Assembly (NCBI GenBank): GCA_030831125.1
Contig: JAURLQ010000013.1
Location: forward strand, 1-64,000
Direction of reading: 5' to 3'
DNA from: Gammaproteobacteria bacterium
Lineage (GTDB): Bacteria; Pseudomonadota; Gammaproteobacteria; Pseudomonadales; Pseudohongiellaceae
Length of the DNA: 64,000 nt
Of this stretch, positions 2,072 to 19,365 are shown in pieces. Position 1 is the stretch's first letter. Every line of letters begins with the position of its first letter. The position numbers were made by a program, and so were the translations under genes. The notes under the pieces are model-generated. The model searched no databases and had not been told where the DNA came from. It saw only the letters and a program-made list of their open reading frames with translations.

Positions 2072-3349
2072 ATGCACTTCCTGACAAAAAAACACATCAA
2101 CAGAAGAGCGATACTGCGCGGTGCAGGGACTGCACTGGCATTGCCACTGCTGGAATCCATGCTCCCGGCCGCATCCCTGGCCGCAGAAATGACGCCAAAA
2201 TCGCGGCTTGCCTGCATCTACATAGCGCATGGTGCCGTCATGAAAAACTGGATGCCTGCAACTGACGGAACCGGTTTCGAATTCACCCCTACCCTGAAGT
2301 CTCTTGAGCCTTTCCGTGATCAGCTCAACATCATCAGTGACATGACGCTGCCCTTCGCCTACGGCACAGATGCCTCAGCCGGAGCCAATCATGCGCGCTC
2401 CTCATCAGTGTGGCTGACCTGTGCCCAGCCAGGTACCGGCCCTTCGCCATTGTCACTCGACCAGGTGGCAGCAGCTGCTATCGGTCAGGACACACCAATG
2501 CCTTCGCTGGAGCTTTCCCTTGAAAGCGGCAGTTCGATTTCCTACCTGACACCTGATTCTCCGCTACCAATGGAGATCAATCCGCAGGTGGTATTCGAAC
2601 GCCTGTTTGGTGATGGCAGTACTGCCGAGGAACGGGCTGCCCGACAGGATCTCAAGAGTTCATTGCTCGATTCAGTTACTGAAAGCATCGGAAAAATGGA
2701 ACGCACCTTGCCTGCAGCGGACCGGATCAGGCTGGAACGCTATCTGGAAGATGTGCGTGAAATCGAAAGGAGACTTGCACTGGTTGCCAGTTCCCCGGTA
2801 TCGGATCTTGAAGTGCCTGACAAACCCGTAGGTGTGCCTGCACGTTTTACTGACCATGCAAAACTGATGTTTGATCTGCTGGTGCTTGCCTGGCAGGCGG
2901 AAATAACCCGCGTTTCTACCTTCATGGTGGCGCGTGAAATCAGCAACACAGTGTATTCGGAAAGTGGCATCAACGATCCCTTCCACAATCTTTCACACCA
3001 TTCAGAAGTACCATCCAATATTGAGAAACTCTCCACACTCAATGCTTTCCACACCCGCAGTACTATCGCCTACTTTCTGGATAAGCTGCGCAACACCCCG
3101 GATGGCAATGGCACACTGCTTGACCACTCAATGGTCCTTTATGGCAGTGGCATGAGCAACTCCAACCAGCATGACCACGATCCTCTGCCACTGCTGCTGG
3201 CGGGCGGTGCATCCGGCAGACTGGCCGGAGGTCGTCATATAAGGGCCGGAGAAGGTACACCAATGTCGAACCTGCTCTACAGCATGCTCGACAAGCTCGA
3301 TGTGCCAGTGGATGGATTCGGTGACAGCACAGCCTTGCTGACCCTGTGA
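2072..3349 (+). CDS. DUF1552 family Tat-exported protein
   Basis: 425-aa protein of the DUF1552 family, the standard partner of DUF1592 proteins. The N-terminus has a twin-arginine signal (NRRAILRG followed by a hydrophobic stretch and AxA-type end near residue 38), so it is probably folded in the cytoplasm and exported by Tat. Family landmarks seen: IYIAHGAVMKNWMP, PMEINPQVVFERLFG, the VREIERRL helix, and a conserved C-terminal block (LLDHSMVLYGSGMSNSNQHDH, then the LLAGG region). The start has a strong GAGGAGG at 2061-2067. It lies 9 bp after the DUF1592 gene and directly before an exported ankyrin gene, which implies one operon. A second DUF1552 gene lies at 62454-63776 in the same gene order. 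No enzymatic function is known to me. Confidence 0.9.
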   Translation: MHFLTKKHINRRAILRGAGTALALPLLESMLPAASLAAEMTPKSRLACIYIAHGAVMKNWMPATDGTGFEFTPTLKSLEPFRDQLNIISDMTLPFAYGTDASAGANHARSSSVWLTCAQPGTGPSPLSLDQVAAAAIGQDTPMPSLELSLESGSSISYLTPDSPLPMEINPQVVFERLFGDGSTAEERAARQDLKSSLLDSVTESIGKMERTLPAADRIRLERYLEDVREIERRLALVASSPVSDLEVPDKPVGVPARFTDHAKLMFDLLVLAWQAEITRVSTFMVAREISNTVYSESGINDPFHNLSHHSEVPSNIEKLSTLNAFHTRSTIAYFLDKLRNTPDGNGTLLDHSMVLYGSGMSNSNQHDHDPLPLLLAGGASGRLAGGRHIRAGEGTPMSNLLYSMLDKLDVPVDGFGDSTALLTL

Positions 3350-3356
3350 GGTGACC

Positions 3357-4916
3357 ATGGGAAAAGTTACAGTCACTACAGCCCTGTTTGCCACTGTATT
3401 AACGCTGTCTGCGCATGCCCAGGATACCCGCCTGCCTCAGGCGGCAATGGACCGGGACATGGCAACTGTCAATGCCCTGATTGCCGAACAGGGAGTGGAC
3501 ATAAATGCGCTCGGTCCCTACGAAACACCTGCCCTGCACTGGGTAGTACGCATTGAAGACCTTGATACTGCTGCCCGTCTTCTTGCAGCCGGCGCCGATC
3601 CTGACCTGCTGAATCACTATCAGCTTTCTGCGCTGCATCTGGCCATTGAGAATGGGGATGTGGACATGGTGGAGCTGCTTCTCAAATCAGGTGCAGATCC
3701 ATCCATCCGCAACAAGGCGGATGAAAGCGCCCTTTTTCTTGCGGCCCGTAGCGGTTCTGCTGCTATTGCCGAATTGCTGATGGATTTCGGCGCAGACGCG
3801 AACGAACGCGAACCAAATTTCCAACAAACGCCGCTGATGCTGGCCGTACGTGCAGCATCACCCGCACTGGTAAAACTATTGCTTGAACATGGCGCCGACC
3901 CGGATGCCCGCAGCCTCATGGGGCCGGAACCAGCTTTCAGAAAACCTGAAGACAACGCTGGATCAAAGGGTGTTGGCATAGTCCGGGGCGGGTGGCCGAC
4001 CAGAGGGGAAAGGGCTCCCATAGCAGGTGCCAAAACGCCTCTGCTTTATGCAACCCGTCAGGGCGATCCTGCACTGACCCGCTTGCTGGTGGAAGCCGGG
4101 GCTGATATTGAGCAGGCCGATGGTAATGGTGTAACGCCTTTGCTCAACGCCATCATCAATGCCAGTGTTGCAAGTCTTGGAGAATCGGGTACGGGCCATC
4201 TCGGGACAGCGTATTACCTCATCGAGCAGGGCGCTAACGTAAATGCCTCCGACTGGTATGGCGAAACTCCACTATGGGCAGCAGTGGTAGTCAGGAATCT
4301 CGATGTTTCAGGTGCTACCCGGGACAACAAGGTGGATCGTGAAGCCATGCTCGGACTGATCTCACATCTGATCAACAAGGGAGCAGATGTGAATGCCAGA
4401 ACCAAAGAGCATCCACCGGAACATCGCTTCATTACACGCATTGGTGATCTGTCGTGGGTGGACTTTACCGGACAGACACCTTTCCTTCGGGCAGCACTGT
4501 CCGGAGACGTCACTGTCATGAAACTGCTGGTGGAGCATGGGGCCGACCCGAACATCACTACCTATGCCGGTACCAATGCTCTGATGGCAGCAGCGGGTAT
4601 GAACTGGGTGGTCAGTCAGACCTGGGATGAAGGCCCCCAGGCGCTGCTTGAAGCTGTCAAGTTTGCTCATGCGCTTGGCAATGACATCAACGCCATCAAT
4701 TCCATGGGGCTCACTGCAGTGCATGCCGCAGCAAATCGTGGCTCTGACGACATCATTCGCTACCTCGCAGAAAATGGGGCCAGACTGGATGTGGAAGACA
4801 AGCAGGGACGCACCCCGACAGTGTGGGCCCATGGGGTGTTTCTTGCCACGCATCCACCTGTTGACCGTCCACAAACAGCCGCACTCATCGAAGCCCTTAT
4901 TGCCGAAAGACAATAA
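3357..4916 (+). CDS. Exported ankyrin-repeat protein
   Basis: About 519 aa beginning with a Sec-type signal peptide (hydrophobic ALFATVLTLSAHA, cleavage near AHA-QD) followed by about ten ankyrin repeats across the whole mature chain (repeated TPLxxA, LLLxxGADP motifs, e.g. GADPDL, GADPSI, GADANE, GADPNI). I place the start at the ATG with GAGG 5 bp upstream; a GTG at 3351 is the alternative. The gene starts a few bases after the DUF1552 stop, so translation is probably coupled. Ankyrin arrays bind proteins; a periplasmic partner, possibly the DUF1592/DUF1552 products, is an inference. The second module at the right of the window has the same third gene. Confidence 0.88.
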   Translation: MGKVTVTTALFATVLTLSAHAQDTRLPQAAMDRDMATVNALIAEQGVDINALGPYETPALHWVVRIEDLDTAARLLAAGADPDLLNHYQLSALHLAIENGDVDMVELLLKSGADPSIRNKADESALFLAARSGSAAIAELLMDFGADANEREPNFQQTPLMLAVRAASPALVKLLLEHGADPDARSLMGPEPAFRKPEDNAGSKGVGIVRGGWPTRGERAPIAGAKTPLLYATRQGDPALTRLLVEAGADIEQADGNGVTPLLNAIINASVASLGESGTGHLGTAYYLIEQGANVNASDWYGETPLWAAVVVRNLDVSGATRDNKVDREAMLGLISHLINKGADVNARTKEHPPEHRFITRIGDLSWVDFTGQTPFLRAALSGDVTVMKLLVEHGADPNITTYAGTNALMAAAGMNWVVSQTWDEGPQALLEAVKFAHALGNDINAINSMGLTAVHAAANRGSDDIIRYLAENGARLDVEDKQGRTPTVWAHGVFLATHPPVDRPQTAALIEALIAERQ

Positions 4917-4938
4917 GCTACCCTGAAGGGATCAACCA

Positions 4939-5850
4939 ATGACTGGCACTATCAAGAACACCAGGTCGACATTCACCCGCAGAAGACTGCTCGCCACAGC
5001 AATGGCAACCGGTGTTTGCCAGTTGCTCCCGGTCACCCGGGCATTGGGGCAGAATGCCTTGCTGCCTCTTGATACGCCGGGACTGGACCATCTGGATGTA
5101 ATAGTGCCCGATGTAGCAGCCACTGCCCGTTTCTACATGGGCGTTTTCAATACAGCGTTGCATGCACAGCCCTTCCGCGGCGGCTTCCGCTATTTCGTGT
5201 TGCTGGGCGAATTGAATGAACAACGCGAAGTGGGTTATCTCGCAATAGGAGATTCAGCCGGCAGAGGCTCCTATATCGGACATTTCTGCACCACAGTTGC
5301 CGACTGGCGCCAGAACGGTCAGGCCATTTTCAGCCAGATGGACGAAGCATTTGCAGATGCCGGCTTTGGCGACTTCCCCGGGAGCACAGGTTTTGGCGGT
5401 ATATTTGCAGACCCCGACGGACTGGAAATCCAGTTTCTGCCTGCCCCTGACACCCTGGTAACAGCGGCAGTGCCTTCCGATCTGGTGCAATGGCATCAGG
5501 GAATGGTCACTCCCCATGGCGTGGATCATGTTGTACTGCAGGTTTCCGACCTGGAACGCGCCATCAGCTATTACAGAATACTTTATGGCCAGGAAACACG
5601 TCGGGGTAATAACAGGGCAGATTTCATCTTTGCCAGCTCATCAACAACACTGCAGCTTGAGCAGTCACGTTATGAATATGGCATGAACCCGAAAATTGCC
5701 CGCTTTGGTATCAAGGTATCTCCGTTTGACCGCAACACAGTTACTAATGGCATTACTGCCCTTGGCGGCAGTGTGCTGGAAAGTGAAATTCCGGGATCAC
5801 TGCGCTTCAGCGACAACGATGGCAATGTGGCTGAACTGGTACCCGTCTGA
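4939..5850 (+). CDS. Tat-exported tandem VOC-fold (glyoxalase/dioxygenase superfamily) protein
   Basis: 303 aa with a twin-arginine signal (TRRRLLATAMATG, end near residue 37) followed by two vicinal-oxygen-chelate modules, about 45-175 (LDHLDVIVPDVAATARFY; FADPDGLEIQFLP) and about 190-303 (VDHVVLQVSDLERAISYY; DNDGNVAELVPV). Each has the beta-alpha-beta-beta-beta layout and the terminal metal-region pattern DxDGxxxEL/QF. VOC proteins include glyoxalases, extradiol dioxygenases and binding proteins; the reaction here is unknown. An exported VOC protein is uncommon. An AAGGGA ribosome-binding site lies 7 bp before the ATG. It follows the ankyrin gene by 22 bp and is likely the last gene of that operon; the right-hand module in the window does not show an equivalent. 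Confidence 0.82.
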   Translation: MTGTIKNTRSTFTRRRLLATAMATGVCQLLPVTRALGQNALLPLDTPGLDHLDVIVPDVAATARFYMGVFNTALHAQPFRGGFRYFVLLGELNEQREVGYLAIGDSAGRGSYIGHFCTTVADWRQNGQAIFSQMDEAFADAGFGDFPGSTGFGGIFADPDGLEIQFLPAPDTLVTAAVPSDLVQWHQGMVTPHGVDHVVLQVSDLERAISYYRILYGQETRRGNNRADFIFASSSTTLQLEQSRYEYGMNPKIARFGIKVSPFDRNTVTNGITALGGSVLESEIPGSLRFSDNDGNVAELVPV

Positions 5851-9178: not shown

Positions 9179-10660
9179 ATGACAATTCAAATGGTAGACG
9201 CCAGATCCCTCCCTGTTCCGGGCATCGCCTGCCTGATGCTTTGTTGCCTGCTTTTTTCAGCATCCACAGTTTCCAATGCCCAGGAAATCGTGAATATTGA
9301 CAGGGTGCTCTTCGAGCCCGATCCCCTGCCCTCCTCTGACAGCCCCCCTGTATTGGCCTCCATCCCTGGGACCAAGGGCAGAATTGTGCTTGCCGCCAAT
9401 ACCGATGAAATGATTGCAACGTCAGACCCTGACAAGGCAGCGCGGGACGTAGAACAGTACCTGCAGGTCATCACCGAAACAGAGGCCCAGGAAGGTCCTT
9501 TTGATACAGGGCTGTTCGAGTATTATCTGGATCTGGGACTTGCCTATCAGGACCAGGGATTGCATGAAGAAGCCATAGAGGCATTTGAAAAGGCAGAATA
9601 TATCAGCCGCATCAATAACGGCCTGTATTCTCCTGATCAATTCCCTGTAGTTGAACGTATGATAGACAGCTACATTGCCACAGGCGATTTGTTGACAGCA
9701 AATTCAAAACAGCAATATCTGCTTTATCTCAACACCCAGTTCTATGGTGAAGACAGCCTTGAAGTAGTCCCTGCACTGGATTATCTGGCCGACTGGAACA
9801 TGGATACTTTCCTGACAGCTCTTACACTCGGCAACAGCGTAGGATTGAATATCAATTTTGGCGGCAGAGGCGTCGGTGGCATCAACGCTACCCCCCGCGC
9901 CCTTGCCATGAGAAATCTCTTTCTGGCGCAGAGCCAGTATTACCAGGCAATTGAAAACCTGATTGACCATCGCAGGTTATTTGATCCGAAACTTCTGGAA
10001 CTGGAACAGAAGCTGGTGGAAGCCATTTTCCTTTCAGCGCTGCGGCGCGGAATTCTTGAAGATCCTCTGTTTTACTTGAACAGGAGAACAGCAAGAACCG
10101 GCTCCCGTATTGTCAGGGATGAACTGAGAGGCAACACCATGAGCTATATCAATGGTCGTAACGCCTGGATGCGCATGCAGATCTACGTGAAAAACAACCC
10201 TGCTGCCACCCCTCTGGATGTTGCCCGAAGCATGCTGGGTCAGGCCGACTGGAACATGATGTTCAATCGTCGTGTAACAGCCCGGGAACAATATGCTGAA
10301 ATTCATGACTACCTGCAGACTAGTGGTCTGGAGGAAGCAGAAATCAATGCCCTGTTGCATCCACCCCTGCCAGTGCAACTACCCGAAATCACTTTTCGCC
10401 CACATACCAGGCAGCACCTCGGCGTACCTGAGGACGCACAGATTGCATGGCAGGGCTATATAGACCTGGGTTTTTCAATTTCCCGATACGGCAATGTCCA
10501 GGGCATCCGTATACTGGGCAAAAGTGACAATGTCACTTCCAGACTGGAAAGGCGTCTACGCAAGGTACTGCACAACTCCCCCTTCCGTCCGCGACTTGCC
10601 GATGGTGAGCCACTGAAGCAAGATGAAGTGCAGTTAAGGTACTATTTCGCTGAAATCTGA
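9179..10660 (+). CDS. Exported TPR protein with TonB-C-like C-terminal domain
   Basis: 493 aa with a Sec signal peptide (CLMLCCLLFSASTVSNA) and mature start near QEIVNIDRVLF. Residues about 110-180 form TPR-like helices (LGLAYQDQGLHEEAIEAFEKAEYIS). A long helical middle section follows. The last about 70 residues (GYIDLGFSISRYGNVQGIRILG ... SPFRPRL ... VQLRYYF) resemble the TonB C-terminal domain. There is no N-terminal anchor, so it is not a classical TonB; I infer a periplasmic protein. A paralogue with the same architecture lies at 12644-14119. The 3' end overlaps the convergent SDR gene by 19 bp. Function unknown. Confidence 0.78.
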   Translation: MTIQMVDARSLPVPGIACLMLCCLLFSASTVSNAQEIVNIDRVLFEPDPLPSSDSPPVLASIPGTKGRIVLAANTDEMIATSDPDKAARDVEQYLQVITETEAQEGPFDTGLFEYYLDLGLAYQDQGLHEEAIEAFEKAEYISRINNGLYSPDQFPVVERMIDSYIATGDLLTANSKQQYLLYLNTQFYGEDSLEVVPALDYLADWNMDTFLTALTLGNSVGLNINFGGRGVGGINATPRALAMRNLFLAQSQYYQAIENLIDHRRLFDPKLLELEQKLVEAIFLSALRRGILEDPLFYLNRRTARTGSRIVRDELRGNTMSYINGRNAWMRMQIYVKNNPAATPLDVARSMLGQADWNMMFNRRVTAREQYAEIHDYLQTSGLEEAEINALLHPPLPVQLPEITFRPHTRQHLGVPEDAQIAWQGYIDLGFSISRYGNVQGIRILGKSDNVTSRLERRLRKVLHNSPFRPRLADGEPLKQDEVQLRYYFAEI

Positions 10661-12643: not shown

Positions 12644-14119
12644 GTGAAAACAGCGATCCTGAAATCCACCCGCAACAAACTCAATGAACTGGGCTCTGTG
12701 ATGAGCTTTTGCCTGATTCTTGCCACTTCCCAAACTGGTGCGTAGAATCTGGATAATCTATATTTTTCTCCAGCTCCACTTGATGACATCAGACACACGG
12801 ATACAAGAGTTATCGGGTCTGACAATCCTGATGACAATATCCAGTCCAACACAGCCACTCACGACAATTCCGCCAGCCCAACTGACAGCCTGATGCTGAT
12901 GAGCTCAAGGGAGAAATTCCTGGCGAGTGTGAAAGAGACCGAATTGTCAGAAGGGCCATATGCAAGATCACTGACACAGCAATACCTGTCATTGGGGAAC
13001 CTGTTCAGGATAGAGGGAAACACCGACCAGGCACTTGAATATTATGCCAAAGCGGAACATAACAGCCGGGTGAATTTCGGTCTGTATGCGCCAGAACAAT
13101 ACCTGCCGATAAAGGGTTCCATTGATATCTATCTTGCCTTGCATGATTACGAACAGGCACTGGAACGTCAGGAATATCTGGTCTACCTGCACAAGGCAAA
13201 CTACGGGCGTGATGCAGCTGAAGTTGTGCCTGAAATGGTTGTTCTGGGCAACATGTATTTTAATGCCTATGAAAGAAGCATAAATTATCAGGCTTCCCCT
13301 GCAGATGTTCCCCTCGCCTTCGGTCGCGAAACAGATTACAGGAATCCGGAAGACCTCAGCAATTTCGAGAAGAGTTTCCAGTTTCTGAACCTTGCCCGGA
13401 AGCAATATATTGATTCCATCACAACCCTGATAGCACTGGAAGCCTGGCACAACCCTTTACTTGTGCCTCTGGAAAACAGTCTTGTTGCAACCTATTTTCT
13501 GCAGGCCAACAGTACACGGATAGCTATTGATCCCCGCTTTTTCACGAGTGCACGACATACCGGTGCGAGAGATACCTTACGCATGGATGAAAATGTAAAC
13601 AGACTGCCGATGTACCGGCAAGGCGTGGAAGCTTTCAATCGCATGCTGGCCTATCTGCACAACAGCCCTGATACAGAACCACAGCAGATTGCAGAAGCCA
13701 TGCTGGAACTGGGTGACTGGCATACGCTTTTCGGATATGGAAAACGTGCCGAAAAGCAGTATGCAGAGACAAGAGCCTTTCTTGTCGACAGCTCCTGTGA
13801 TCCCGCAATTGTGCTCACTTTACTGGAGCCTGCAGTACCGGTACAACTTCCTTCATTTCTTGACCGGCCGAATTCAGTCAGTGCGCTCACTAAAGCTCCT
13901 GCTACTGACAGTTTTACCGGTTATATCGATATTGCATTCTCACTGGACGATGCAGGCAATGCGGAGAATATTGAAATCATGGACAAGAGCAACAACACCA
14001 GCAGGGATGTCGAAAACAGACTGATCCGGGTGCTGCGCGACGCACCTTTCAGGCCGTCACTGGGTGACGACAGCAAAGCCGGAAAAATCGAACTGCGTTA
14101 CCATTTTGCAATGCTCTGA
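12644..14119 (+). pseudogene. TPR/TonB-C-like exported protein, interrupted by an in-frame TAG at the signal-peptide junction
   Basis: Paralogue of the gene at 9179-10660. From a GTG at 12644 (GAGG 6 bp upstream) the frame encodes a signal-peptide-like start (VMSFCLILATSQTGA), then TAG at 12743-12745, then continues with NLDNLYFSPAPL, which aligns to NIDRVLFEPDPL just after the signal peptide of the paralogue. The total of 491 codons nearly equals the intact copy's 493. The paralogue has Gln (AQEIVNI) at this point, so TAG is one transition from CAG. Downstream coding is intact to 14119, with TPR-like helices (FRIEGNTDQALEYYAKAEH) and a TonB-C-like end (GYIDIAFSLDDAGN ... APFRPSL ... ELRYHF). 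Options are a recent pseudogene, a sequencing error, or cytoplasmic expression by reinitiation at the ATG at 12893. Confidence 0.75.
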
Positions 14120-14171: not shown

Positions 14172-16364
14172 TCAGGGCAACATGGTAGTGAACCGCAGTT
14201 CCAGCATTGATCCGGAATAGACAGGACTGGCATTACCCAGTAACAGGATGTTGTTCAGACTGTCCACTGCCACATTGTCCAGAGCAAAATCACTGGAATG
14301 ATAATCATCATAACGATATCTGACGGTAACACCGTTTCCGCCGGTGAATGTGTACTTGATGGCAGTATTGAAAGTGGCAAAACGGGTTTTGAAATCCGGC
14401 AATGCGGTAAAATCAAGGCCCGGGCTGGCTGGACGACTTTGAGTCCCGGCATCCGATATACTGACATCAGACCTGATCTCCCATCTGTCGTTCATTGAGG
14501 TCCAGTTGATTGAGGCGCCACTGCTGTGGACCTTGTCAAGACTACTCATATACCAGTTGTTGTTCTGCAGTCGCTCACTCGCCGGATAGAATGGTGTCCT
14601 GTTGCTGCGTTCATATCCGGCCTGATCATTCCGGTAAGCCTGCCACCCCCTATAGACATTCAGGTTGAGTCGGTCTGCAGGCGAATATCCCAGATTCACG
14701 TCCAGATGCCAGGCATCTGATGACTGCAGGCCAATCAGGGACCCGGGAAATTCATCCCGGGTCAGATTTCCATTGATATTGAGACTGAGCCCTGCAGGAA
14801 AAATAGTATTGAGCATGACAGAAGTCCTGGAACGATTCCTGTCAGCAAGATGGAATCGCCTGAGCAAAGGATCATTTTCAAACAGCTCGTTGCCACTGAG
14901 GGTGGCAATGAAATCCGGATTATGCCCATTGAGGAATCCCTCATTGGACTTGTATGCAGAACCGCGTCTTGCGGCTTCCTGCAGTTCCACGCTGGCAGAA
15001 CCTGCACCAGGCAAGGGAAAACGAAATTTCAGTCCCAGACTCTGTTCATTCACACTATCAACCGCCACGAAATCCCGGTGTTTCAGATCATACTGATAGC
15101 TCAACTGGAGCTGCCTTGCACCGCTCAACCTCAAGACACTATCCAGTGCTATTTGCTGCTTGCCATGACTGTAGGGACGGTTGAGACGGGTATTGCTGCT
15201 GACGAGAGCTGCCTGCGCTGCACTGTCACCGGGGATACGCTGGTACAAGTGGCGCCGGGTATCATTGTCCCGGACATCTGCAGTGTATCGGGCACGAAGA
15301 GACAGGCGCGATGCCAAACGTGTGGCATAGTTCAGGCTTGCATTGAGGGTGCGAACATCACCTTGCAGGCTCAGCGCAGGAAGTGGCGAAGCCGCCGAGA
15401 ATACTGAACTGTAAGGCAGGAACACTTCATCCTGCTGCATACGACCCATTGCCACGGTACCACTTAAACGGGAACCATCACTGAATCCGTAGAGCCCTGA
15501 AAGAGACACATTATGAAACTGGTTATCCGGGCTCAAAGCCATCTGTCCGAAGGCACCATCACTGTAACCTGAGCCGTTGAGCCACTGGCCGTTGTCAAAT
15601 GGATTGCGCCAGCGAAGATCTGCATTTTCATTCTGGAAAAGCGAACCCCGGTAACTGAACTGCAGGGAGCGTGTGTCTGACTGCCATGCAGTTGTGATAA
15701 CAAAATTATCTGTCACATAATCCACTGGTACTGCGAGGATGGCACCGCGAGGATTTCCACCTGTGCTGCCGAAAATGGCACCAAGTGTATCCGTACCATT
15801 CTTGCGCTGCCTCTGATGGCTGCCTTCAAGCGTCCAGACTTCACTGATGCGCATTTCCAGCCGGGTCTGAAGATGCGAACGGTCTGTATATATCGAAACA
15901 GGCCTGGGATTTTCGAACAGTGTGCTGAAGCCAGCTGTAGCTGAAGCAGGTGCCCAGTTTTCAGGCAGGTTCTGCACAGCTGAACCTGCATTGCTGAATG
16001 GACTCAGCACCGGGTTGTCGAACCGATAATGAGGCATGCCCTGATAGCTGATTGAGAGTCTGTATTTGCCAAATGCACCTTTCGTGAAATCCATACTACT
16101 GTTATCCAGCCCGAGTCTGTTTGCAGTGAAATGCCAGTATTGGCCGCTCCGGTCGGTATAGGGAACCTGTACACCTGTATCAATGGAACCTGAGAAATAG
16201 CTTCCACTTTCATTCAATCCGCTATATTCACCAAAGCGAAAAGAATCAGGTTGTACAAGAAGGGTGCCGAATTCCACTACTGATTGGGACCAGGAGTATG
16301 CAGGCAGAACTGCAAGCACCATAACCAGTGAACGCGGAGAAAAATATGTAGCCGGCGATTTCAC
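14172..16364 (-). CDS. MtrB/PioB-family outer-membrane beta-barrel protein
   Basis: 730 aa with a signal peptide (SLVMVLAVLPAYSWSQS). The chain is cysteine-free as I read it, rich in aromatic and alternating hydrophobic segments, and ends in a strand terminated by LRFTTMLP, all typical of a large barrel. The N-terminal motif SGSYFSGSIDTGV and the following repeat pattern match MtrB/PioB decaheme-associated barrels. It starts at a GTG overlapping the TAG of the decaheme gene upstream (TAGTG), so the two are translationally coupled. In the family the barrel sheathes a decaheme cytochrome and conducts electrons across the outer membrane. The CxxC seen near the N-terminus of Shewanella MtrB is absent. 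No MtrC-like surface cytochrome is nearby. Confidence 0.85.
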   Translation of the reverse strand: MKSPATYFSPRSLVMVLAVLPAYSWSQSVVEFGTLLVQPDSFRFGEYSGLNESGSYFSGSIDTGVQVPYTDRSGQYWHFTANRLGLDNSSMDFTKGAFGKYRLSISYQGMPHYRFDNPVLSPFSNAGSAVQNLPENWAPASATAGFSTLFENPRPVSIYTDRSHLQTRLEMRISEVWTLEGSHQRQRKNGTDTLGAIFGSTGGNPRGAILAVPVDYVTDNFVITTAWQSDTRSLQFSYRGSLFQNENADLRWRNPFDNGQWLNGSGYSDGAFGQMALSPDNQFHNVSLSGLYGFSDGSRLSGTVAMGRMQQDEVFLPYSSVFSAASPLPALSLQGDVRTLNASLNYATRLASRLSLRARYTADVRDNDTRRHLYQRIPGDSAAQAALVSSNTRLNRPYSHGKQQIALDSVLRLSGARQLQLSYQYDLKHRDFVAVDSVNEQSLGLKFRFPLPGAGSASVELQEAARRGSAYKSNEGFLNGHNPDFIATLSGNELFENDPLLRRFHLADRNRSRTSVMLNTIFPAGLSLNINGNLTRDEFPGSLIGLQSSDAWHLDVNLGYSPADRLNLNVYRGWQAYRNDQAGYERSNRTPFYPASERLQNNNWYMSSLDKVHSSGASINWTSMNDRWEIRSDVSISDAGTQSRPASPGLDFTALPDFKTRFATFNTAIKYTFTGGNGVTVRYRYDDYHSSDFALDNVAVDSLNNILLLGNASPVYSGSMLELRFTTMLP

Positions 16365-17296
16365 TAGCGTGTGAACCTTGACCCTGAAGGATGGTTGGAG
16401 CCATGAATCTGTGAATGACAGTTCAGGCAGGCCTGACCAAGCAGTTGTTGTGCGGCACCCAAAGGAGGCAAACCATCACCGCTGTAAAGCGAACTCGGAT
16501 GAAACGCATCCTGATGACAGTCCTGACACAGAAATGGCATTCTGGTTGAAAGCAAACGATCCACTACTGAACCGTGTGGATTGTGGCAGGTCGTACAATT
16601 ATCCGTCACAGGTTCATGTTCCCAAAGGAAAGGACCGCGTTTTTCGGCATGACAGCCAAAACATGCCTCAGCCACTGTATTTCCTGCTAGCAGATTCTGA
16701 GTCACGGATCCATGCGGGTTATGACAATCACTGCAGGCAAGCAAACCTTCCAGCACCGGGTGATGAGATCGTTGGCGGAACTGGGACTGTTTTTCCAGAT
16801 GACAGCCTATACAAACTGCAGGTTGGGTAGCACGCGATAACACAGGATCATTGGATTGGTGGATATCGTGACAGGAAATACAGCTCAGTTCGGCAAACTG
16901 GTGTTCACTGTTCATCCAATGCGTACGCTGGCCACTTTCATGGCAACTAAGGCATACAGCATTCTGTTGTTCTGCTGTGGATACCGGAAAAACCACCGAA
17001 CCTTCGAATACAACAGCAGTAGGCATGGATGTTGTGCGTCGGTGTTCTGGACTGGCGCCATGGCAGCTTTCACAGTCGTGATCATTATAGGGCGATCGGG
17101 AATCTGCGCGGCTTGCGTGGTCTGTCTCGAAAAGTGGAGTAACAGCAGGACGGTTATGGCAGCTCAGACAGGCACGCTCTCCGATACGCGCGAAATTTCC
17201 AGTCTGGGCATCTGCTTCAGGCAAGAACATCAAGCAGACAAACACCAATGCCAGAAGCGATACTGAAAAGCGGACTTTTGAATGGATTGCAAACAT
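16364..17296 (-). CDS. MtrA/DmsE/PioA-type periplasmic decaheme c-type cytochrome
   Basis: About 310 aa from the ATG at 17296, which has AGGA 7 bp upstream and begins directly with a signal peptide (VSLLALVFVCLMFLPEADA); an upstream ATG at 17359 would add 21 residues. Ten CxxCH heme motifs are present: CLSCH, CESCH, CLSCH, CISCH, CIGCH, CSDCH, CFGCH, CTTCH, CQDCH and CLNCH. The spacing and the repeated CHNPHGSV motifs match the MtrA/DmsE family. The last codon overlaps the GTG of the barrel gene. Together they form a porin-cytochrome pair that in characterised systems moves electrons between periplasm and exterior, outward for metal or DMSO reduction and inward for iron oxidation. Direction cannot be read here. 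Confidence 0.9.
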   Translation of the reverse strand: MFAIHSKVRFSVSLLALVFVCLMFLPEADAQTGNFARIGERACLSCHNRPAVTPLFETDHASRADSRSPYNDHDCESCHGASPEHRRTTSMPTAVVFEGSVVFPVSTAEQQNAVCLSCHESGQRTHWMNSEHQFAELSCISCHDIHQSNDPVLSRATQPAVCIGCHLEKQSQFRQRSHHPVLEGLLACSDCHNPHGSVTQNLLAGNTVAEACFGCHAEKRGPFLWEHEPVTDNCTTCHNPHGSVVDRLLSTRMPFLCQDCHQDAFHPSSLYSGDGLPPLGAAQQLLGQACLNCHSQIHGSNHPSGSRFTR

Positions 17297-17467
17297 TGGC
17301 ATATCCTGGCTTTTACCAGTAATCATGTCATTGACTCTAGCAGGTATATGGTGGGTCATACTTGTTCTGGATCAGGTTGATCAGATCAGACCGGACAAGG
17401 AAAATATTCCACTTTTTCTGACTATCCATCAGGAGTAGACTCGGACCAGATACTTGGAAACAGTGCA

Positions 17468-17956
17468 ATGGCTTTTCTGGCATGGCTTGAAGGATCAATA
17501 CTCAGTCTATGGGTACGTGAGTCAACATGGGGTTTTCCCATAAGCCTGACTCTGCACTCAATAGGCATGGGTTTTCTGGTGGGTGCGAACTTCATGATCG
17601 CGCTCAGATTGTACGGTTTTGCCCGCCTTGTTCCGCTGTCATCACTCAGGCAGTTTTTCTCGTTGATGTGGTGGTCGGCCTTGCTCTGTCTCGTATCCGG
17701 CCTGTTGCTCCTGATCGGTTATCCAGCCAAGGCGCTGACAAATCCGGTTTTTTATCTGAAGCTCGCACTCGTTGCGGCAGGGTTGGTACTGGTCACCCAA
17801 ATGAAGCACCAGTACATGCATGGTGAGCATGAATCATCCCCGGTCATGCGCAGGAAAGCACTTCTGCTGCTGCTGTTCTGGGCCGGAGGTATCACAGCAG
17901 GCCGGTTCCTCGCCTATACCTATGTAATGCTCAGCACCGGGCAAACCTATTTCTGA
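17468..17956 (+). CDS. Small polytopic membrane protein (DUF6644-like)
   Basis: 162 aa with about four transmembrane helices (LHSIGMGFLVGANFMIALRL; LMWWSALLCLVSGLLLLIG; FYLKLALVAAGLVLVT; LLLLLFWAGGITAGRFLAYT). A conserved His in TLHSIG and the terminal GGITAGRFLAY motif are shared with the next gene. The fold resembles small DUF2214/DUF6644 membrane proteins; heme b binding by conserved His is possible but not demonstrated. It is divergent from the decaheme/barrel pair with a 171-bp gap to the preferred MtrA start, which suggests a shared control region and a role as inner-membrane partner, an inference only. Confidence 0.65.
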   Translation: MAFLAWLEGSILSLWVRESTWGFPISLTLHSIGMGFLVGANFMIALRLYGFARLVPLSSLRQFFSLMWWSALLCLVSGLLLLIGYPAKALTNPVFYLKLALVAAGLVLVTQMKHQYMHGEHESSPVMRRKALLLLLFWAGGITAGRFLAYTYVMLSTGQTYF

Positions 17957-17964
17957 GGCTGAAA

Positions 17965-18471
17965 ATGGAAGCATTGTTCCTGACATTTTCTGAAAAAACC
18001 GGTATCCAGGCCCTGATGTATTCACCCTGGGGCTGGCCTGTTGTTGAATCCCTGCACTTTATCGGCCTGTCTCTCCTGATAGGAGCAGTAGGTATCTTTG
18101 ATCTGAGAATGCTCGGGTTCATGCGCGGCATCCCGATGATGGCCCTGCACCGGCTGGTGCCCTTCGGAGTAGCGGGTTATCTGCTGAATGTACTCACGGG
18201 AATCATGTTCGTGACATCAGTGCCGGATCAGTACATCTACAACCCGGCCTTCCAGAGCAAGATGCTTTTCATGCTGGTTGCAGGACTGAACGTAGCACTG
18301 TTCTACAACACCAGTTTCCGGCAGATTGGCCGGGAGCCAACACCAGGAACCGTGAACATGTCACGTCTGTTTGCCGGTATCTCCCTGGTATGCTGGCTTG
18401 GCGTTATTACCGCAGGCAGGTTGATCACCTTTTATCGACCGCCCTTCTACTGGTGTTTCTGGTGCAGTTGA
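17965..18471 (+). CDS. Small polytopic membrane protein, paralogue of the preceding gene
   Basis: 168 aa, about four transmembrane helices, 8 bp after the previous gene and with GAGG 6 bp before its ATG. It shares SLHFIGLSLLIGA (compare TLHSIGMGFLVGA) and GVITAGRLITFY (compare GGITAGRFLAYT), so the two are tandem duplicates that probably form a heteromeric membrane unit. A second His occurs in ALHRLVPFG. No catalytic domain is visible. Its company next to the decaheme MtrA/MtrB pair hints at a quinone- or heme-linked role, but this is inferred from position. It converges on the metallo-beta-lactamase-fold gene 12 bp away. Confidence 0.65.
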   Translation: MEALFLTFSEKTGIQALMYSPWGWPVVESLHFIGLSLLIGAVGIFDLRMLGFMRGIPMMALHRLVPFGVAGYLLNVLTGIMFVTSVPDQYIYNPAFQSKMLFMLVAGLNVALFYNTSFRQIGREPTPGTVNMSRLFAGISLVCWLGVITAGRLITFYRPPFYWCFWCS

Positions 18472-18483
18472 AAGGTATTGCAA

Positions 18484-19365
18484 CTACTGCTCCTGGGCTG
18501 CAATTCTCTGTTCTTCCAGACGCAGATTCATGGCCTGCTCATTGAGCGCAATTTCGTAGAGATATCCTTCAGGATCGATATAGGGGTTCGGTGACTGTCC
18601 CACGCGCGGGTACTTTTCAGCCATGGCATACATGGTGGGATGTGAACCCAGAGGCACATCAGCGTCAATAGCGCGCAGGCTTGCATAGCTCTGGCGATAC
18701 TGTTCCACAATGCCCGGTCTGTCAGGATTGTTCCATAACTGATAGTTGGGGTTGACACCGACACTGCAGATAATCACAACCTTGTGGGACTGCCCGGCAT
18801 CCATCACATCGAGCTCCCAGCTTGTGCAACCGTCACTGTGGCCAGGCGTCAGATGGGCTGTCAGGATTTCTCCCCCGAGGCTGATGGTGTCGCCATCGTT
18901 GATTATTGCATCCATCGGGTGCTCCTTGCCCCCCGGACGCATTTCGACCAGCCCTGGTACCTGTTCCGCCATCACTATCACTCGCGCGCCGCTCAATTCC
19001 TTCGCCAGCGCATCTCCCTGCATGTGATCAGCATGTTCATGACTGCCAATGATGATTTCAATATCCTCAAAACTGAATCCCAGCTGTTCGACCGAATCCT
19101 TGATGGTAGGGACATTGCGTTCGAAATCCGTATTAACAAGGATATGCCCGTCATCAGTTGTGATGAGAAAAGAAGCCAGCGATTCTGTGCCTACGTAATA
19201 TACATTGTCGATAATCCGGTGCGGTGGAAACTGCGCATCCATTTGTCCTTCCGTGCCGATATTCCGCCTGAAGAGGTCGTCCGGCAAGAGCCTTGGCAAT
19301 TCCTGGGCAAGCAGTGGCGATACAAGCAGAACCAGTCCCGCCGTTGAAAGTATTTTCATCCTCAT
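18484..19365 (-). CDS. Exported metallo-beta-lactamase-fold hydrolase, subclass B3-like
   Basis: 293 aa with a short signal peptide (ILSTAGLVLLVSPLLA-QE). The zinc site is complete: HEHADH (His109, His111, Asp113, His114), His176 in LTPGHSDGCTSW and His242 in GSHPTMY. The TPGHxxGCTxW segment and the C-terminal YRQSYASLRAI ... GSHP pattern follow subclass B3 enzymes rather than B1 or generic glyoxalase II. Periplasmic location also fits. Environmental B3-like proteins may or may not hydrolyse beta-lactams, so resistance should not be assumed. No regulator such as ampR adjoins it. The gene is monocistronic between convergent and divergent neighbours. Confidence 0.85.
   Translation of the reverse strand: MRMKILSTAGLVLLVSPLLAQELPRLLPDDLFRRNIGTEGQMDAQFPPHRIIDNVYYVGTESLASFLITTDDGHILVNTDFERNVPTIKDSVEQLGFSFEDIEIIIGSHEHADHMQGDALAKELSGARVIVMAEQVPGLVEMRPGGKEHPMDAIINDGDTISLGGEILTAHLTPGHSDGCTSWELDVMDAGQSHKVVIICSVGVNPNYQLWNNPDRPGIVEQYRQSYASLRAIDADVPLGSHPTMYAMAEKYPRVGQSPNPYIDPEGYLYEIALNEQAMNLRLEEQRIAAQEQ

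Follow-up and report, generated by a model that had tools for sequence, protein, structure and literature searches.

The DNA that we analysed, a stretch of 64,000 nucleotides referred to here as the window, belongs to contig C60 of a host genome of 3.16 Mb that is 99.9% complete. On its reverse strand, mtrA (positions 16364 to 17359) encodes a periplasmic decahaem cytochrome c of the DmsE/MtrA family, and mtrB (14172 to 16364), which begins with GTG, encodes an outer-membrane beta-barrel protein of the MtrB/PioB family with a signal peptide. An earlier note on this DNA had recognised such a pair, and the profile and structure matches bear it out. MtrA has ten CXXCH motifs, scored 297 bits against TIGR03508 ('DmsE family decaheme', cut-off 192), and in its mature form aligned from end to end with the MtrA chain in the solved structure of the MtrCAB complex from Shewanella baltica (6r2q, E=2e-79). 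MtrB matched the Pfam family MtrB_PioB (PF11854) with E=1.2e-116 and TIGR03509 with 357.8 bits (cut-off 240), and it is homologous along its whole length to the MtrB chain of 6r2q. The two genes are a genuine outer-membrane electron conduit of an already known kind. Read from its first ATG, mtrA has an odd leader, and the signal peptide is cleaner from Met20, which is probably the true start (near 17302). The TAG stop of mtrA and the GTG start of mtrB share one base in the sequence TAGTG (16364 to 16366, reverse strand), an overlap consistent with the coupled translation that had been suggested. MtrB contains no cysteine at all, so that it lacks the N-terminal CxxC, as had been noted; this absence is ordinary, being found in 61 of the 71 MtrB homologues scanned, and eight of the ten barrels with the motif belong to loci that also encode a large multihaem cytochrome or DmsEFAB. 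Promoter and terminator scans gave matches at chance level only.

Divergent from mtrA, and beginning 108 bases upstream of its first ATG, lie two forward-strand genes for four-helix membrane proteins of the DUF6644 type, one of 162 residues (17468 to 17956) and one of 168 residues (17965 to 18471); they are neighbours of the conduit and not demonstrated members of it. The earlier description of two divergent membrane proteins with a conserved histidine was correct. The two share about 25% identity, and in an alignment of 78 DUF6644 members the residues H31, K99, W144, G151 and R152 (numbering of the second protein) are invariant, giving one invariant histidine per protein. The second protein matched DUF6644 (PF20349) with E=3.6e-7 and 30.9 bits (cut-off 27); the first was a weak Pfam match below this cut-off and was clear with a DUF6644 family HMM. 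Some members of the family weakly match DUF2214, UPF0093/HemJ and CopD. The predicted model of the second protein is a four-helix bundle with a pLDDT of 93.6. With this model Foldseek returned nothing better than E=1, while VIA-align matched designed haem bundles, cytochrome b561, bd oxidases and NOX with Z scores usual for helical bundles; HemJ and CopD structures did not appear in the VIA-align listing, which excludes nothing. In some genomes both proteins are fused in a single frame of about 345 residues (for example L080:7641-8687 and L088:7773-8807), which suggests that the two tandem products act together as a heterodimer. A model of the naturally fused pair, built from two sequences, reached a pLDDT of 38.8. 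The pair may plausibly bind haem or a metal. We found no papers on DUF6644.

The earlier note had suggested that this membrane pair could be a new inner-membrane module linked to MtrAB and had proposed a survey of their co-occurrence. We ran this survey and found no co-occurrence of the two in other genomes, an outcome that the note had named as refuting its proposal. The family HMM detected no DUF6644 protein in 80 named MtrA loci of other GTDB genomes (0/80, up to 8 kb on each side). DUF6644 is present in 73 of 115 relatives, nearly all of them from the window's own family, and the genes are mostly in tandem among the loci read. No relative examined has one beside an intact MtrAB, although the MtrAB contigs of relatives L038, L039, L040 and L044 are short and show their flanks for a few kb. 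The sole near case is G037, where about 7 kb separate a broken MtrB fragment from a DUF6644 gene, which belongs to a different subgroup. Besides the window pair, the host genome itself has two other tandem pairs plus a single additional copy, with no multihaem genes near these other loci.

Orthologues of the second membrane protein (56-68% identity) occur in some three dozen relatives and stand apart from other DUF6644 copies (at most 46% identity), with one intermediate at 50%; the first protein is kept beside them in nearly all loci read. The orthologous pair adjoins radC and coaBC in G009 and G010 and mraZ/rsmI-type genes in G012, G019 and G023, and it is also found in many genomes without MtrAB. 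Five relatives (G003, G009, G035, G051 and G070) carry both the orthologous pair and MtrAB, at separate places. Since the pair lies away from MtrAB in all of these relatives, its adjacency in the window is specific to the host genome and is a one-off. In G003, of the same genus, the pair belongs to an operon that also includes genes of the DUF1552, ankyrin, VOC and DUF6152-like types (L200:3902-9901), and the genes that directly precede it there are orthologues (65-76% identity) of the DUF1552, ankyrin and VOC genes at 2072 to 5850 of the window (forward strand). This suggests that the older association of the pair in the host was with the operon of these genes. We rejected a link between DUF6644 and MtrAB on synteny and co-occurrence. 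Apart from their adjacency to MtrAB, the proteins encoded at 17468 to 18471 are ordinary members of the tandem or fused DUF6644 (PF20349) membrane proteins, and such pairs should not be read as parts of extracellular electron transfer systems, which removes a tempting false link.

Possible redox partners of the conduit were sought across the whole host genome. The NapC/NirT/CymA family (PF03264) has no member in it, and MtrA is its only PF09699 protein. We also scanned for other multihaem proteins with a DNA-level pattern of two CXXCH motifs spaced by a gap of 45-75, using MtrA itself as the positive control. The pattern matched six times inside MtrA and at five other places in the genome, none of which fell within an open frame bearing at least two CXXCH motifs, and by this pattern the genome has no other multihaem open reading frame. 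The absence of an MtrC-like surface cytochrome and of CymA, which had been noted for the window, thus holds genome-wide, and an MtrC-type surface decahaem is missing both beside mtrAB and elsewhere. The genome encodes only two molybdopterin enzymes (read from the translations), one of the formate dehydrogenase type beside NuoE/NuoF-like genes and an fdhD-like gene, and the other NuoG in the complex I cluster; it encodes no DmsA, no RuBisCO and no high-potential iron-sulfur protein (HiPIP) such as PioC. Hence, the CymA-MtrC chain of Shewanella, DMSO respiration, PioC-type transfer and RuBisCO-based lithoautotrophy are not encoded. Partner genes of mtrAB could belong to unrecognised families or lie in the small fraction of the genome that the assembly lacks.

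We built a maximum-likelihood tree from 82 MtrA proteins, in which that of the window grouped with two loci from the same genus (support 98); this set of three was nested in a clade of seven that includes a locus from a MAG labelled Pseudohongiella. By this placement, the family of the window is probably Pseudohongiellaceae. In none of the seven loci is a gene for a large cytochrome, NapC or EB_dh visible, and mtrA and mtrB alone are common to nearly all of their gene neighbourhoods. The nearest other rows include clusters of NapC, EB_dh and MtrAB, whereas loci of the MtrCAB type and the DmsEFAB locus of Ferrimonas, a long-branched row, fall mostly in another main branch. A recurrent arrangement of a NapC-type tetrahaem protein, EB_dh (PF09459), MtrA and MtrB was seen in L091 (6345-8966), L094, L095, L105 and L113, from gammaproteobacteria, methanotrophs and one Sphingomonadales MAG. 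A second group (L118, L120, L125, L137, L158 and L167) has EB_dh and MtrAB followed by DUF1800-like and DUF1501-like proteins. Several MAGs titled Marinimicrobia have an MtrA that clusters with Rhodospirillaceae, and the title Klebsiella pneumoniae of MAG contig L090 (CAMDML010000041.1), which is the G003 contig, is evidently wrong. We found no literature joining Pseudohongiella and extracellular electron transfer.

The distribution of mtrAB among relatives is patchy. MtrB is full-length or nearly so in 8 of the 115 relatives, and within the genus intact MtrAB occurs in the window genome, G003 and G009. In G010, of the same genus, a remnant of mtrAB with several internal deletions is left (L046:8477-9236), and in G037, of a sister genus, only a C-terminal stretch of MtrB (L045:7652-8065). 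These broken copies show that loss has happened repeatedly. The remnants and the patchiness fit a cassette that is easily gained and lost. Among the carriers, G051 and G070 have a Na+-NQR-like cluster (NqrF to NqrA) convergent with mtrAB (L042:11172-17011 and L043:12444-18000), and G035 has genes for a ferric-reductase-like flavoprotein and a cytochrome b5-like protein immediately 3' of mtrB (L041:5374-7049, the same as L097:11099-12774).

Several known systems resemble the window locus. MtoAB of the Fe(II) oxidisers Sideroxydans and Gallionella likewise consists of a decahaem cytochrome and a barrel without a surface cytochrome, but no partner of the CymA, MtoC or MtoD type was found in the window genome, which also has no RuBisCO, and its MtrA lies outside the branch with the Gallionella locus L111. 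The likeness to PioAB proposed in the earlier note stands for the anatomy, as PioAB(C) of Rhodopseudomonas is also a two-part outer-membrane conduit without MtrC; it does not extend to the redox partner, because the genome lacks a PioC-type HiPIP, and the window MtrA lacks the long N-terminal extension. MtoAB and PioAB do not make up a clade of their own (PMC8805035), and Thiomonas strains with mtoABD likewise have no obvious inner-membrane redox gene nearby (PMC5566968). MtrA and MtrB are homologous over their whole length to those of Shewanella MtrCAB, from which the locus differs by the lack of MtrC, CymA and the CxxC of MtrB and by the placement of its MtrA in a separate part of the tree. 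The clusters of NapC, EB_dh and MtrAB (L091, L105 of Methyloprofundus, L113) share with the window the lack of a large surface cytochrome and, outside the family, are some of its closest neighbours in the MtrA tree, but the window locus has neither their tetrahaem quinol dehydrogenase nor their EB_dh protein. The earlier note's reading of MtrAB as a conduit of two parts that has no surface cytochrome is supported.

In conduits of this family, as in the solved complex 6r2q, MtrA sits inside the MtrB barrel with its ten haems and carries electrons across the outer membrane. We consider it likely, from the gene content of the genome and its relatives, that MtrAB of the window works as a stand-alone conduit, exchanging electrons with ordinary soluble cytochromes of the c type, and that the DUF6644 pair is an unrelated neighbour. 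mtrAB would thus be a porin-cytochrome conduit of the MtrAB/MtoAB/PioAB kind that stands alone, with the DUF6644 pair presumably brought beside it by rearrangement. Because the genome searches yielded neither a dedicated quinol dehydrogenase nor a periplasmic multihaem carrier nor a surface cytochrome, the partners of MtrA are probably ordinary periplasmic mono- or dihaem cytochromes c, with which it would exchange electrons. Without MtrC, the tip haem A10 of MtrA is exposed, and Shewanella mtrC mutants reduce Fe(III) chelates (PMC7198977); the exposed haem would also trade electrons directly with soluble extracellular partners. The direction of electron flow is not inferable from MtrAB-type genes (PMC8805035). 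Net inward flow seems slightly more likely here, since no CymA-like step from a low-potential quinol to MtrA appears to be encoded; Fe(II) or a reduced organic compound, for instance, might serve a heterotroph as an accessory donor, with its electrons passing to cytochrome c and on to a terminal oxidase. More tentatively, this MtrAB may represent an orphan lineage, found in Pseudohongiellaceae-like heterotrophs and working without any multihaem partner, in which MtrA exchanges electrons directly with ordinary soluble cytochromes c and serves as a minimal port that is easily gained and lost. The locus adds a family of gammaproteobacteria that appear to be heterotrophs to the carriers of MtrAB, and it shows that such a conduit can persist in a genome with no recognised quinol dehydrogenase or surface cytochrome.

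The reading closest to a stand-alone, inward-leaning conduit differs from it in direction only: electrons would leave the respiratory chain through MtrAB for soluble oxidants such as Fe(III) chelates, humics, hydrogen peroxide or iodate. In Shewanella, MtrAB alone suffices for soluble acceptors (PMC7198977), and the nearby tree branches with a NapC-type quinol dehydrogenase, EB_dh and MtrAB would be in keeping with an outward flow across the wider group; the host genome, however, has no CymA or NapC and hence no known route from a low-potential quinol, and we regard this reading as possible rather than probable. That the cassette is a relic with little present function in this host is unlikely. 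The broken copies in G010 and G037 could mean that MtrAB does little, and together with its patchy occurrence they lend modest weight to this view, but mtrAB of the window is intact, retaining all ten haem motifs and an uninterrupted frame for the barrel, and its base composition is close to that of the surroundings.

The other two alternatives, both of which bear on claims of the earlier note, fare worse. A role of the membrane pair as a b-haem inner-membrane module shuttling electrons between quinones and MtrA would suit the divergent arrangement 108 bases from mtrA, and one invariant histidine per protein in tandem or fused pairs would suit an inter-subunit haem; the confident four-helix model, the haem b membrane proteins among its structural matches, and the weak matches of single members to CopD and UPF0093/HemJ point the same way. 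Yet these structural matches are within the range for any helical bundle, and the absence of DUF6644 from all 80 MtrA loci and from the vicinity of intact MtrAB in relatives, together with the presence of the orthologous pair in many MtrAB-less genomes and its location beside housekeeping genes, makes such a module very improbable. An assignment of MtrAB as the DmsEF part of an extracellular DMSO or iodate reductase, which had been named as an alternative, is barely credible: TIGR03508 calls MtrA DmsE-family, though that name spans MtrA-type proteins widely, whereas the genome has no DmsA-like enzyme and MtrA lies far from the Ferrimonas DmsEFAB locus in the tree, albeit with that row long-branched.

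Two further features of the window were observed. A subclass B3 metallo-beta-lactamase-like protein, with a score of 235 bits where the curated cut-off is 240, is encoded on the reverse strand at 18484 to 19365, and two TPR-repeat proteins of similar layout with a weak TonB C-terminal-like domain are encoded on the forward strand at 9179 to 10660 and 12893 to 14119.
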